Assembly: GCF_025370785.1 (NCBI RefSeq)
Contig: NZ_JAMXFA010000003.1
Coordinates: 62,001-126,000 of the forward strand
Origin: Laspinema olomoucense D3b
Lineage (GTDB): Bacteria; Cyanobacteriota; Cyanobacteriia; Cyanobacteriales; Laspinemataceae
DNA: 64,000 nt
Reading direction: 5' to 3'
Part shown: positions 38,934-43,075 of the stretch, piece by piece
How the letters are laid out: every line of letters begins with the position of its first letter
Numbering within the stretch: the stretch's first letter is position 1
Program-made: the position numbers and the translations under genes
Notes under the pieces: model-generated
The model's input: the letters and a program-made list of their open reading frames with translations, nothing else
What the model was told of the DNA's origin: nothing
Database searches by the model: none

Positions 38934-40148
38934 TCACCGAGTGTTACTCAATTGAGCGGTTCTCACCGTGAGTTCTAGGGTTTGGGGACCCCGTTGAACT
39001 GTAAGACGCAGGTCGCGATTGACGCCGCTATTTTCGACGATGCGCTGCAATTGATCAGCGGTGGTGATGGGGGTTCCATCTACAGCAACGATCGCATCCC
39101 CAAGGCGCAATCGGGCCGCTTCTGCGGGGGAATCTCGCACCACTCGCATCACTAACACGCCGTTAATTTCCGGGACGATTAAGTTAGAATTCCGGTCCTG
39201 ATTGTTTTGGCGCGCTAGGTCCGGGGTTAAGGTGACCATCTGAATGCCGATAAAAGGATGAGCAACAGTCTCACCTTTGGCTAATACATCGGTGAGCGCT
39301 TTTGCTTTGTTGATGGGAATGGCAAATCCAATCCCTCTGGCATTGGGACGAATGGCGGTGTTAATGCCGATGACTTGGCCGCGATCGTTCAACAGGGGAC
39401 CGCCAGAGTTGCCAGGATTGATGGCGGCGTCAGTTTGTAGGAAGTCCACTCGTTTATCGGGAATGCCGACTTGGGAGGACGATCGCTCTAATGTGCTAAT
39501 AATCCCTAATGTGACTGTATTATCTAACCCAAATGGATTACCGACAGCGATCGCCCAATCTCCCACTCGCACTTGTGAGGAATCCCCCAAAGGTGCAACG
39601 GGTAATTGTTCTCCGGGGTCATCAATCTTGACCACCGCTAAATCAGTAACCACATCAGTTCCGCGCACTTCCCCCTCGAATGTGCGACCATCTTTTAAAG
39701 TCACCGTGACGCGATCGGCATCACTGACTACATGAGCATTCGTGAGAATTAACCCGTCACCGTCGATAATGAACCCTGAGCCCTGACCCCGCAACAGTTC
39801 TTCTTGCTGGGGGACTGGCACATCCGGTCCGAAAAACTCTCGAAACAAGGAATCATTAAAAAATGGGTCATCCCGACGGGTGATCGTGCGTTCGGTATCC
39901 AGGCGGACCACGGAAGGTCCGACGAGATCAACCGCTGTGGTGACAAAATTGCCTGCGCTTCCCGGGTTCTGTTTGGGTTGGAGGGCCACCGTTACCGGGT
40001 TGGCGGGGAGAGAATCCACCGCAGATAAGGAGGTTGCTGCCGCAGAGACAGACCCGAGGGGGTTCAACCAGGCGATCGCACTCCAAATCCCCATTAATAA
40101 ATAAGTGATAAGGGTTCGCCAATTCGCACAAAATTTAGAAAAAGACAT
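38934..40148 (-). CDS. HtrA/Deg-type serine protease with PDZ domain
   Basis: 404 residues. A hydrophobic N-terminal segment ([16 protein letters not shown]) anchors or exports it. The trypsin-like domain has the full triad: histidine in [11 protein letters not shown] (about 137), aspartate in [10 protein letters not shown] (about 167) and serine in NPGNSGGPL (about 248). A PDZ domain covers about 295-395 ([22 protein letters not shown]). This is the cyanobacterial HhoA/HhoB/HtrA group, which degrades or refolds damaged proteins in periplasm or thylakoid lumen. Which of the three it is cannot be settled by eye. It is transcribed alone. Confidence 0.95.
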
Positions 40149-40352
40149 CGTTATTATTTATATCCGTCCGTAGAGTAAGAGCGAAAATCGAGGAGGCGAG
40201 GGGTTACCCCATCACCCTCCCCTGATTCCACAGTATAACGAACTCCGCTGCACTCACAATCCTCTGAAGATAGATTACGCAATTCCGGAAAGTTTTGGAG
40301 TTAACCCCAAACCCTTGCCAGAAGTCGCTTCCCTATTCCACATCAAACACAA

Positions 40353-40418
40353 GAAACCGGGGTTTTGCCCTCATTTGTGCCTCTTATCCAGAACTGGGAT
40401 AAAGAAACCCGGTTTCTA
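40353..40418. repeat. AAACCGGG-ended inverted-repeat element, copy 1
   Basis: The ends are AGAAACCGGGGTTT and AAACCCGGTTTCT, inverted copies with one extra G. A similar structure, AAACCGGGATTTTGT ... ACAAACCCGGTTT, lies at 62002-62074. The interiors are only weakly alike, so family membership rests on the ends. Confidence 0.55.
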
Positions 40419-40613
40419 GTCTCTCCTGTACCAACGCGGTCTAATTTTTCAGACTATCAGAAAATTTTCCAAAACCAGTTCCCTTCAAACCCAAGGAATT
40501 GTTATCTGATGAAATTTCTGAATAGGAAAAACCGGGCTTCTCTTTTTAAGGAATTGCTAATTCGTGAATATGGGAGCAATCAAACGACGTGATGACCGCT
40601 ACTTTACGGGAGG

Positions 40614-40651
40614 TTTAGGGGGTCAAAAACTTTCAAGGTAGACCCCCTAAA
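40614..40651 (-). terminator. Hairpin after the hspA stop
   Basis: TTTAGGGGGTC (40614-40624) and GACCCCCTAAA (40641-40651) form a perfect 11-bp stem directly downstream of the Hsp20 gene on the minus strand. The loop is 16 bases and no clear U-run follows. Confidence 0.55.
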
Positions 40652-40657
40652 ATCACT

Positions 40658-41098
40658 TTAGCCAATGTTCACTTTAACGACCTTGTTTTTCTCCTCTTCT
40701 GCTTTGGGCAAATTTAGCTGGAGAATGCCATTTTTGTATTCCGCCTGCACTTCGGTATTTTTGACCCGGGCGGGGAGGGGAATCACCCGGCGGAATTGAC
40801 CATAGCGAAATTCGCTGCGGGTCATGCCTTGTTGTTCGGTGCGAGTTTGGGAGTGACGTTCTCCACTAATGGCTACAGATTCAGCGGTGACTTGAACGTC
40901 GAAGTTCTCGGGTTCCATGCCGGGAATTTCTAGTTTTAAGTGAATAGCATCGCTGGTTTCGGAGATTTCGGCAGGGGGAACGAAGGTTAGTCCGCCGTTT
41001 TCAGTTTCTGGGGAGGAAGAAATGGTGTCAAATAAGCGGTTCATTTCCCGTTGTAGTGTGTCAATTTCCCGAAAAGGGGAATAACGAATGAGTGCCAT
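40658..41098 (-). CDS. hspA: Small heat shock protein Hsp20 (alpha-crystallin family)
   Basis: 146 residues. ATP-independent chaperone that holds unfolding proteins and stabilises membranes. The start MALIRYSPFREIDTLQREMN is the standard cyanobacterial HspA N-terminus, so ATG 41098 is preferred over the in-frame codon at 41116; GAGGAGG lies nine bases upstream. The alpha-crystallin domain shows IHLKLEIPGMEPENFDVQV, VAISGERHSQ, and RVIPLPARVKNTEVQAEY, then the A-x-x-x-n-G-I-L motif as YKNGILQLNLPK. The 5' leader can hide the ribosome site in a hairpin (41108-41153), suggesting translational heat control. A hairpin follows the stop. Confidence 0.96.
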   Translation of the reverse strand: MALIRYSPFREIDTLQREMNRLFDTISSSPETENGGLTFVPPAEISETSDAIHLKLEIPGMEPENFDVQVTAESVAISGERHSQTRTEQQGMTRSEFRYGQFRRVIPLPARVKNTEVQAEYKNGILQLNLPKAEEEKNKVVKVNIG

Positions 41099-41107
41099 AA
41101 TAGGTTG

Positions 41108-41153
41108 CCTCCTCAAGAATTGATGTTAGGGTGAGGTAGGAATCGCTTACCTC
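41108..41153 (-). promoter_or_regulatory. Candidate RNA thermometer in the hspA leader
   Basis: On the minus strand the leader contains CCUACCUC (complement of 41133-41140), then 18 bases, then the ribosome site GAGGAGG (complement of 41108-41114). CCU-A-CCUC pairs with GAGGAGG over seven base pairs with a single bulged A, hiding the whole site nine bases before AUG. The same CCUACCUC can instead pair with GAGGUA just upstream (complement of 41148-41153), giving two exclusive folds. Cyanobacterial Hsp17 is known to use a short leader thermometer. Confidence 0.5.
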
Positions 41154-41250
41154 TTTCTGGAATTAATATATCTAAGTTAAGGGGAGGGTTAAGTTCGGTT
41201 TTGTGTATGGGTTGAGTGTAAATTACCGCACCTGTAGGGAGGCGTAAGGA

Positions 41251-41321
41251 GGATAACTACAGCAAGTGGTGACGTTGAACATTGAGGATTAACGACAGCA
41301 ATTCGTGACGTTGCACATGGG
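41251..41321. repeat. Imperfect tandem duplication of about 36 bp
   Basis: Two adjacent units share ACAGCAA and, a few bases on, GTGACGTTG and ACAT in the same order (start points 41251 and 41286). Only two copies are present. Confidence 0.5.
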
Positions 41322-41518
41322 GAAGCTGGTAAAATCCTTGGGGGGTAGAGCAGTTTGGCCCGGTTTTAACTGAGTTTGGCGATGAGGTGGGGGTTTGGGC
41401 CTCTGTAGGGGCTTGTTTTTGTGGGGGGTCTCCCGGATTGCGGTTTAAACCTGGTGAATACCCCGGCGTTCGGATTCAAGGGAAGAGGCGCTTTTTCCTT
41501 GGGGTGAGCGCTTTGCCG

Positions 41519-43075
41519 ATGATTCACTGTTGTTTATTTGGACTGTGGTTTTTGCTTATGTTGAGATTGACTCGCGATCGCCTTTACAAATCCCTGAAAT
41601 CGCTCAATTTACTGGCGTTGACGCTGACATTGGTCAGTTTACCGTCCCCGGTGAAGGGACAAACCGCACCCCCTGCACCTGCGCGCTTTTGTCAGTCGCT
41701 GTTGGAACCGACGATCGCCGGGATTATCAATCGTCCGGAATTGCGGCGAGCAAGATGGGGTATTTTAGTAGAAACTTTAGAGGGGGGAGGCGATCGCACC
41801 CTTTATCGTCGCGATTCTGAGCAGTTTTTCATTCCCGCCTCTAATGCCAAATTGCTCACAAGTGCCGCAGCGTTGCATCATCTCGGTCCAGACTTTCGGA
41901 TTCGCACCTCGGTTTATGGTTCTAATCTGACTGGGGACCGGATCGACTCTGTGCGGATTGTGGGACGAGGAGACCCGACGATTGGGAAAACTCAGCTAGA
42001 GGCGATCGCCCAACAACTGCAGCAACAAGGTATCGGTCAAATTGGCGAAATCATCGGGGAAGATGGTTATTTCATCGGTTCTCCCGTCCATCCCAACTGG
42101 GAATGGGAAGACGTGCAGGCGGGATACGGTGCACCCGTAAACAGTCTGATTTTTAATCAAAATAGCGTGGATTTTACCTTAACTCCCCAGGGATTAGGAC
42201 AACCGCTATCCTTGACTTGGGCGAATCCCACGGAACAAACCCGATGGCAAGTTGAAAATCGGTCCCGGACGGTTTCGACGGATGCGCCGGAATTTTTGGA
42301 GGTGGGGAGAGAGTTGACGCGACCGATTGTGCGAGTCTCGGGTCAGTTGCACGTGGGGTCACCGGCAGAAGAGGTTTCGATTTCTGTGGTGGAACCGGCA
42401 CAGAACTTTTTAGGGTATTTCCGCCAAGCGTTGAATGGGGTGGGAATTACCACCGGACGGGAGATAGTGAGTGACCAGTTTAGAAATATGCCGAATCAGC
42501 AGGAATTAGCGGCGATCGTCTCACCTCCTTTATCTGAAATGACTGTTGAAGTTTTGCAAAAAAGTAACAATCTTTATACAGAAGTCATGCTGCGATCGCT
42601 TGGGGCAAATCCCCAAGGCAAAGGCAACAATCCTTTGCCAGAAGAAACTCGGGAGGCCGGTTTACAAGTGTTGAAAGCCGCTTTAACCGACTTGGGAGTC
42701 GATCCGACCAGTTACGATTTAGTCGATGCTTCCGGACTCTCTCGCCGAAACCTAGTCAGTCCCCAATCTTTGGTACAAACCCTGCGAGGGATGGCGGATT
42801 CTCCCTATTTTGACATTTACCGGGAAGCGTTACCTTTAGCGGGGGTGAGTGGTACATTGCGGACCCGGTTTCGGAATACCCCGGGGGCACAAACGGTCCG
42901 GGCCAAAACGGGTACATTAACGGGGGTATCTGCTTTATCGGGGTATGTTCCCAATTCGGAGTATAATACATTGTTGTTTAGCATTGTCGTTAATCAATCG
43001 GATCAATCCTCGGCAATATTGAGAACGGCGATCGATGAAATTGTGGTGTTGTTGACGCGATTGGAACGCTGCTAA
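41519..43075 (+). CDS. dacB: D-alanyl-D-alanine carboxypeptidase/endopeptidase (PBP4, peptidase S13)
   Basis: About 518 residues from ATG 41519. A hydrophobic export signal (SLNLLALTLTLVSLPSPVKG) follows a basic stretch; ATG 41558 is an equally possible start. The three penicillin-binding motifs are Ser108-Asn-Ala-Lys111, Ser349-Asn-Asn351 and Lys463-Thr-Gly465. A long insert between the first and second motif, with GRGDPTIGKTQLEAIAQQL and GAPVNSLIFNQN, is the hallmark of the S13 (PBP4) class. It trims and cleaves peptidoglycan cross-links in the periplasm. It is transcribed alone, divergent from hspA. Confidence 0.95.
   Translation: MIHCCLFGLWFLLMLRLTRDRLYKSLKSLNLLALTLTLVSLPSPVKGQTAPPAPARFCQSLLEPTIAGIINRPELRRARWGILVETLEGGGDRTLYRRDSEQFFIPASNAKLLTSAAALHHLGPDFRIRTSVYGSNLTGDRIDSVRIVGRGDPTIGKTQLEAIAQQLQQQGIGQIGEIIGEDGYFIGSPVHPNWEWEDVQAGYGAPVNSLIFNQNSVDFTLTPQGLGQPLSLTWANPTEQTRWQVENRSRTVSTDAPEFLEVGRELTRPIVRVSGQLHVGSPAEEVSISVVEPAQNFLGYFRQALNGVGITTGREIVSDQFRNMPNQQELAAIVSPPLSEMTVEVLQKSNNLYTEVMLRSLGANPQGKGNNPLPEETREAGLQVLKAALTDLGVDPTSYDLVDASGLSRRNLVSPQSLVQTLRGMADSPYFDIYREALPLAGVSGTLRTRFRNTPGAQTVRAKTGTLTGVSALSGYVPNSEYNTLLFSIVVNQSDQSSAILRTAIDEIVVLLTRLERC

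Follow-up and report, generated by a model that had tools for sequence, protein, structure and literature searches.

The window analysed here (the whole stretch of DNA, 64,000 nucleotides) comes from a cyanobacterial genome of 7.02 Mb in 104 contigs and carries on its minus strand a gene, hspA, whose product matches the Pfam HSP20 family (E 7.3e-21). Relatives of hspA are found in 138 of the 148 genomes searched, the host genome itself included. The ATG start lies at 41098-41096 on the minus strand according to the ORF list and is preceded by a predicted leader that can adopt several small RNA folds. The initial annotation had assigned this element to the hspA leader, an assignment borne out by the reading frame, the HSP20 match and a predicted transcript start near 41158. 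The features discussed below are the following.

40658..41098, minus strand: hspA, small heat-shock protein (HSP20 family) of 146 amino acids (ORF, Pfam HSP20, homologues)
41061..41077, minus strand: early codons predicted by folding to pair with 41123-41108 (stem D, 16 pairs)
41099..41158, minus strand: predicted hspA leader of about 60 nt, its start near 41158 placed from the -10 element
41108..41114, minus strand: ribosome-binding site (SD) GAGGAGG (sequence)
41108..41130, minus strand: hairpin C, local to the SD (CCU/AGG and UCAA/UUGA pairings), able to coexist with hairpin A (folding)
41133..41138, minus strand: 3′ arm of hairpin A, UACCUC (sequence, folding, genus alignment)
41133..41140, minus strand: CCUACCUC, which can pair with the ribosome site instead (fold B), its CCU complete only in the window species
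41148..41153, minus strand: 5′ arm of hairpin A, GAGGUA (sequence, folding, genus alignment)
41165..41170, minus strand: -10 element TATATT (promoter geometry)
41194..41201, minus strand: upstream promoter element AAACCGAA, with 23 nt between it and the -10 element (pattern ACCGAA-N22/23-TANNNT)

Two samples of relatives were used. The genus comparison drew on eight same-genus genomes, including the host genome; one (G001) gave no match, leaving seven species with hspA, and two identical leaders (L092 and L004) were counted once in the genus tallies. The wider sHsp leader set began with 171 loci, of which 166 had a locatable ATG and 156 passed the filters, forming 86 clusters; the hairpin tests used the 41 clusters anchored to the promoter motif. 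The hsp17-type leaders tested were L192 and L193 alone, from one set of 20 loci. GAGG-type leaders were also aligned broadly with MAFFT (A5), but this alignment proved faulty and was excluded from the counts. Two genomes (G011 and G012) contain a second sHsp-like stretch with an in-frame TGA in both, possibly a decayed copy.

Promoter geometry and predicted transcript start

In the 86 cyanobacterial sHsp leader clusters, ACCGAA occurs at 45 sites between 60 and 140 bases ahead of the ATG, and at 42 of these TANNNT follows at 22 or 23 nt; at any other offset between 5 and 49 nt, TANNNT follows three sites at most. Looser forms of the motif anchor 105 of the 156 loci, with a spacing of 23 in 73 and of 22 in 22. 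The window promoter consists of AAACCGAA, 23 nt and TATATT. The ACCGAA motif of sHsp promoters is positioned just upstream of the expected -35 box. Across the host genome as a whole the pattern shows no enrichment, its 20 hits comparing with 19 for a reversed control.

From this computed geometry we infer that the hspA transcript starts near 41158, upstream of both folds described below; both arms of hairpin A and the ribosome site would therefore lie within the predicted transcript. The presence of both arms in the transcript, on which the initial annotation depended, is thus supported by a predicted start upstream of 41133. Applied to L192, a Synechocystis-type hsp17 locus, the same rule gives a leader of 43-44 nt by hand count; protein start, family placement and leader suggest that both L192 and L193 are from Synechocystis. 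The published hsp17 thermometer is 46 nt long according to an excerpt of PMC4166951, and the first two bases of the start codon sit in its stem according to an excerpt of PMC4477652.

Two exclusive pairings of one pyrimidine arm

In hairpin A, GAGGUA (41153-41148) pairs with UACCUC (41138-41133). In fold B, CCU-A-CCUC (41140-41133) pairs with GAGGAGG (41114-41108) through seven Watson-Crick pairs with A41137 bulged, just as first described, and in the computed fold an eighth pair, A41132-U41115, joins them. The two folds share 41138-41133 and so are mutually exclusive.

The pairing with GAGGUA, which had been put forward as the alternative to fold B, is the better conserved of the two. Its five-pair core, GAGGU/ACCUC, is invariant in all seven same-genus species with the gene, beside positions that vary; the sixth pair is broken in four of the seven, and no compensatory change is seen in the genus. 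One leader from another genus of the same family (L027) keeps GAGGUA/UACCUC around an unrelated 20-nt loop, and by inspection a comparable 5′ hairpin is absent from three of the four other family genera (L089, L046 and L034/L044/L045). Against shuffled sequences, the 28-nt hairpin A segment has a z of -2.35 (8 of 200 shuffles as good), the whole 60-nt leader a z of -0.35 (64 of 200) and the leader with 45 coding bases a z of -1.51 (17 of 200).

Invariant arms just after the predicted start might also mark a site on DNA, the inverted repeat GAGGTA-N9-TACCTC serving as an operator for a heat-shock regulator. Entries in the reference list of PMC2743650 concern, by their titles, the post-transcriptional regulation of hspA and a DNA element of an sHsp gene, the latter title announcing that protein binds a new DNA element in a cyanobacterial sHsp gene. 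Such an operator is nevertheless very improbable: the spacing of the arms is 9 in the genus and 20 in L027, and 11, 11 and 16 in L100, L063 and L095, which have GAGGC/GCCTC arms; other leaders carry hairpins with unrelated arms at this place; and the repeat is not CIRCE. The CIRCE operator, bound by HrcA, has the consensus TTAGCACTC-N9-GAGTGCTAA and lies near promoters. By inspection it is absent from 41050-41400 and present upstream of groES in the host genome. The region upstream of that groES gene (locus L227) contains, together with the CIRCE repeat, GTTCGG-GAAC-CCGTAC, which we take to fit a K-box form.

Fold B fares differently. Whilst the isolated 42-nt segment compares well with its shuffles (z -2.00; 7 of 200 as good), the CCU half is complete only in the window species (pair 20-50 is present in one of the seven, pair 21-49 in three), and the covariation check, set beforehand, found neither covariation nor compensatory change in the seven species. 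When the leader was shuffled with the SD kept, SD-masking hairpins at least as strong as fold B arose in 192 of 1000 shuffles with the eighth pair disallowed and in 235 of 1000 with it allowed, so fold B does not exceed what this base composition gives by chance. A 400-kb part of the host genome contains 32 other genes with a strong SD; one of them reaches the same strength without the eighth pair and four do with it. The lock as originally drawn is thus not supported, and we reject fold B as a conserved lock; the long lock appears to be a two-to-three-base extension that happens to exist in the window species.

In isolation the two folds are close in energy: at 25 °C the seven-pair fold B comes to -9.0 and hairpin A to -8.7, and at 37 °C to -6.7 and -6.9, with -7.5 for the eight-pair form of B. 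Which of them wins in longer transcripts depends, in the model, on the length of coding sequence included. In the window at 25 °C, hairpin A is the more probable of the two at 18 of 20 transcript lengths, B winning with 27 and 30 coding bases. The leader alone gives P(A)/P(B) values of 0.94/0.06; adding 15 coding bases brings them to 0.68/0.31, 27 to 0.00/0.99 and 30 to 0.16/0.84. With 33 to 60 they are at least 0.99 and at most 0.01, with 75 neither fold holds (0.06/0.00), with 90 they are 0.54/0.01 and with 120 and 150 they are 0.89/0.00. When the 140 combinations of species and length in the genus are counted, the 3′ arm of hairpin A favours the SD, whatever the register, in 40 at 25 °C and in 44 at 42 °C; all seven species show this preference at some transcript lengths. 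With 75-150 coding bases at 25 °C, arm-SD pairing is preferred over hairpin A at all four lengths in G003, G004, G005 and G006, at three in G002 and at two in G007; in G005, whose SD is AAAGAGGU, the arm pairs by the shifted register ACCUC/GAGGU.

Heating changes this picture little. In the window, P(B) for the leader alone rises from 0.06 at 25 °C to 0.17 at 42 °C; with 15, 27 and 30 coding bases it falls to 0.24, 0.91 and 0.73 at 42 °C, and with 45 it is 0.00 at 25 °C and 0.01 at 42 °C. Mean SD openness over the lengths goes from 0.10 to 0.12 in the window between the two temperatures, and changes by no more than 0.03 in any of the seven species. Over the seven species and all lengths, the model gives no shift towards hairpin A on heating.

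These results bear directly on the idea of a two-state switch, in which the arm would lock the ribosome site at growth temperature and heat would refold the leader to GAGGUA/UACCUC, freeing the site. Both folds exist and are close in isolated energy, P(B) with 27 and 30 coding bases does fall on heating, and each species has some length at which the arm pairs preferentially with the SD (G005 by the shifted register); across cyanobacteria, the 3′ arms of 18 anchored hairpins also match their own SD slightly better than permuted arms do (70 of 2000 permutations). We nevertheless regard a switch as improbable. The genus shows an invariant A core beside a fold B complete in one species of seven, rather than two folds conserved with covariation; the slight change from 40 to 44 of 140 cases is no shift towards A, and SD openness in the window hardly moves; shuffled leaders mask the site equally well in 235 of 1000 cases; the arm-SD match is not above permutation when all 46 leader hairpins are taken (330 of 2000); and hairpin A would be transcribed first, an order that equilibrium folding ignores. 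Of the original proposal of two exclusive folds, the pairings, their mutual exclusion and the competition for the arm (computed in all seven species at some lengths) stand; the temperature switch is not supported, as folding at 25 and 42 °C gave no heat-opened lock. The competition for the 3′ arm is real in the computation, with no predicted heat response.

Masking of the ribosome site and comparison with known thermometers

The clearest computed effect of hairpin A is on the cost of opening the SD. With its 5′ arm deleted, SD opening becomes dearer in all seven species in the short construct, most of all in the window species (from 4.06 to 9.23 kcal/mol at 25 °C), and with 45 coding bases the cost rises in five of the seven; this effect is partly built in, because the 3′ arm is the partner of the deleted 5′ arm.

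With hairpin A in place, two further pairings could mask the ribosome site. Hairpin C is present in the MFE fold of the 60-nt leader. Stem D appears in the MFE fold with 45 coding bases in G000, G003 and G007 only; it varies without compensation, pair 46-87 being lost in four of the seven species, and as a conserved lock of the SD with early codons it was rejected. All three SD pairings (B, C and D) are possible in the model, and none shows covariation above shuffles.

With six coding bases, the cost of SD opening in the window drops from 4.06 kcal/mol at 25 °C to 2.77 at 42 °C, close to the two hsp17-type leaders (4.61 to 3.02 and 5.00 to 3.38); with 45 coding bases the window values are 9.12 and 6.32 kcal/mol. 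For the 41 anchored leaders together, no SD masking beyond chance emerged, the mean difference being -0.30 ± 0.30 kcal/mol against leader shuffles (25 °C, six coding bases) and -0.50 ± 0.20 kcal/mol against synonymous codons (60 coding bases). This group test is without power and counts neither way, because the hsp17-type leaders L192 and L193 also fail it at 25 °C (p 0.53 and 0.36 with six coding bases, 0.85 and 0.68 with 30). For L001 with 60 coding bases, SD masking was not above that of shuffled leaders or synonymous codons, a point against the reading preferred below.

It is possible that the hspA leader contains a simple thermometer. In its one-module form, hairpin C or the early codons (stem D) would mask the SD at low temperature and melt on heating, with hairpin A incidental. 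Hairpin C suits this role in being compatible with A and present in the leader MFE fold, and the opening energies resemble those of hsp17-type leaders; C also shows one both-sided change (C-G to U-A, in G005), although 143 of 500 shuffles equal it, and D is uncompensated. Hairpin C shows no sharp opening in the model, its probability in the leader alone moving from 0.51 at 25 °C to 0.56 at 42 °C. Excerpts of PMC4166951 and PMC4477652 describe cyanobacterial sHsp leaders as a site of diverse thermometers, and excerpts of PMC7760821 and PMC10957709 likewise treat these elements as known and structurally diverse. On balance we think a thermometer of this one-module form unlikely.

The closest comparison is with the hsp17 RNA thermometer of Synechocystis, reportedly described by Kortmann in 2011. 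Like it, the element described here lies in the leader of a related sHsp gene and has a nearby pyrimidine stretch beside the SD, and L192, the Synechocystis-type locus, shares its promoter geometry and has a similar computed SD-opening energy. The hsp17 element is a single hairpin in which UCCU pairs with AGGA across a 10-nt loop, with the start codon in stem I, as an excerpt of PMC4477652 (Wagner 2015) describes it; the hspA leader, by contrast, has a distinct 5′ hairpin able to capture the anti-SD-like arm, and its local SD hairpin is built from CCU/AGG and UCAA/UUGA pairings. No stem I of the hsp17 type (start-codon bases trapped, 1x3 internal loop) occurs in the predicted folds of the hspA leader. 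The long sHsp thermometer of Anabaena variabilis (Cimdins 2014) is ROSE-like with an additional extended hairpin, according to an excerpt of PMC4166951, and so, compared by description only, resembles the hspA leader in having an extra hairpin beside the SD-masking element.

ROSE and FourU elements likewise mask the SD from within the 5′ UTR of sHsp genes. Rfam thermometer models gave no match in 40000-42500 at E values up to 5 (the single match was to a snoRNA family, below the cut-off), and the leader (41158-41099) contains no UUUU of the FourU kind. Some bacterial mRNAs carry stabilising stem-loops at the 5′ terminus, of which that of ompA is the type; hairpin A, which lies no more than about 5 nt from the predicted 5′ end, has a similar position, a resemblance only.

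5′-proximal hairpins in sHsp leaders and the reading of the hspA leader

Whole-leader nulls here are dinucleotide shuffles, and the strictest null shuffles the 3′ part alone; we relied on these because half-swap tests were confounded by base composition. In 39 anchored clusters (L001 and L027 left out), the best 5′-proximal hairpin averages -2.52 kcal/mol, against -1.13 in whole-leader shuffles (z -5.7; 0 of 500) and -1.93 under the strictest shuffle (z -2.6; 3 of 500). The 45 clusters outside the anchored set give -2.48 against -1.37 (z -4.8; 0 of 500) and -1.74 (z -3.2; 0 of 500) respectively. Upstream of the promoter there is no such excess in 37 clusters (-2.91 against -2.71; 151 of 500), and a first all-region test was weak (p ≤ 0.05 in 13 of 86 clusters for the leader and 8 of 86 for the control region).

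The excess is not special to sHsp genes. Other upstream regions of the host genome, 204 in number, show it as well (-3.45 against -2.70; z -4.2), with 66 hairpins at or below -4.5 where 46.6 are expected from shuffles. Relative to the whole-shuffle null, hairpins of this strength are 1.4-fold in excess for the other genes and 4.8-fold and 3.2-fold for the two sHsp sets.

The hairpins differ in sequence. More distant leaders have, near the same place, GAGGC/GCCUC, GGGAG/CUCCC, AGGUUGA/UCAACCU and others, and in 14 of the 41 anchored representatives the search used found no hairpin. Within-cluster compensation is confined to one both-sided change in each of two other clusters, equalled by 61 and 148 of 500 shuffles. 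Anti-SD 3′ arms as a general design were rejected on the 330 of 2000 permutations that match the SD as well across all 46 hairpins. The predicted fold of L192 includes a short 5′ hairpin, GGUU-AAUC-AACC, that overlaps the published stem I region and is absent from the L193 fold. The L028 and L031 leaders share a GUUAACUAAAAGUUAA stretch, a candidate architecture of another type, and in L028 the UCCC immediately preceding the SD has a possible partner in a GGGA close to the 5′ end. A literature search at the level of titles and abstract openings found neither a 5′ hairpin across sHsp leaders nor such a promoter geometry.

Might the folds be small chance structures without function, hspA being controlled at transcription? 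The whole-leader z of -0.35, the weak helices and the patchy occurrence in the family fit such a view, as do the strongly conserved promoter and the hairpin excess in the leaders of other genes; according to an excerpt of PMC3468840, hspA transcripts rise about 900-fold on heat shock in Synechococcus 7002. The arms of hairpin A are, however, invariant beside positions that vary and kept in L027, and the 5′-proximal excess recurs in two non-overlapping sHsp cluster sets at a level above that of other genes. An absence of function is therefore rather unlikely in our estimation.

Our preferred reading, held tentatively and with somewhat less than even confidence, is that the leader is of the ordinary cyanobacterial sHsp type, its 5′ hairpin A conserved and its ribosome site partly masked; the likeliest description of it is new as sequence and known in kind. 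Drawing on the computed sequences, conservation and model energies, we infer a role for hairpin A and a possible thermometer action as follows. The 5′-terminal stem-loop would form as soon as it is transcribed, and stay. It would occupy the pyrimidine arm ACCUC, otherwise free for the ribosome site, which would then be only partly masked, by hairpin C or by the early codons of stem D. If translation is temperature-controlled, these weak pairings would be the likelier heat-sensitive part, and hairpin A would probably act as protector of the 5′ end and insulator of the leader.

A more specific suggestion starts from the GAGGU at the 5′ end of the leader, a near copy of the ribosome site (the SD has GAGG in most genus species). 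This copy might be a decoy that keeps ACCUC off the true site, a safety catch beside a thermometer, the shared sHsp promoter often launching leaders with 5′ stem-loops. We rate this combination as rather doubtful. Were it true, loss of the 5′ copy by cleavage or mispairing would silence the message, and more widely the stem-loop arms of leaders with the ACCGAA/22-23 nt/TANNNT geometry would differ in sequence and yet stay paired.

For the ordinary sHsp leader that we favour, what evolution appears to keep is the 5′ hairpin and the promoter geometry, the extended lock on the ribosome site being private to one species, which indicates the bases to change first. The promoter rule may in turn make sHsp transcript starts predictable in many cyanobacteria, so that diverse candidate thermometers would become directly testable.
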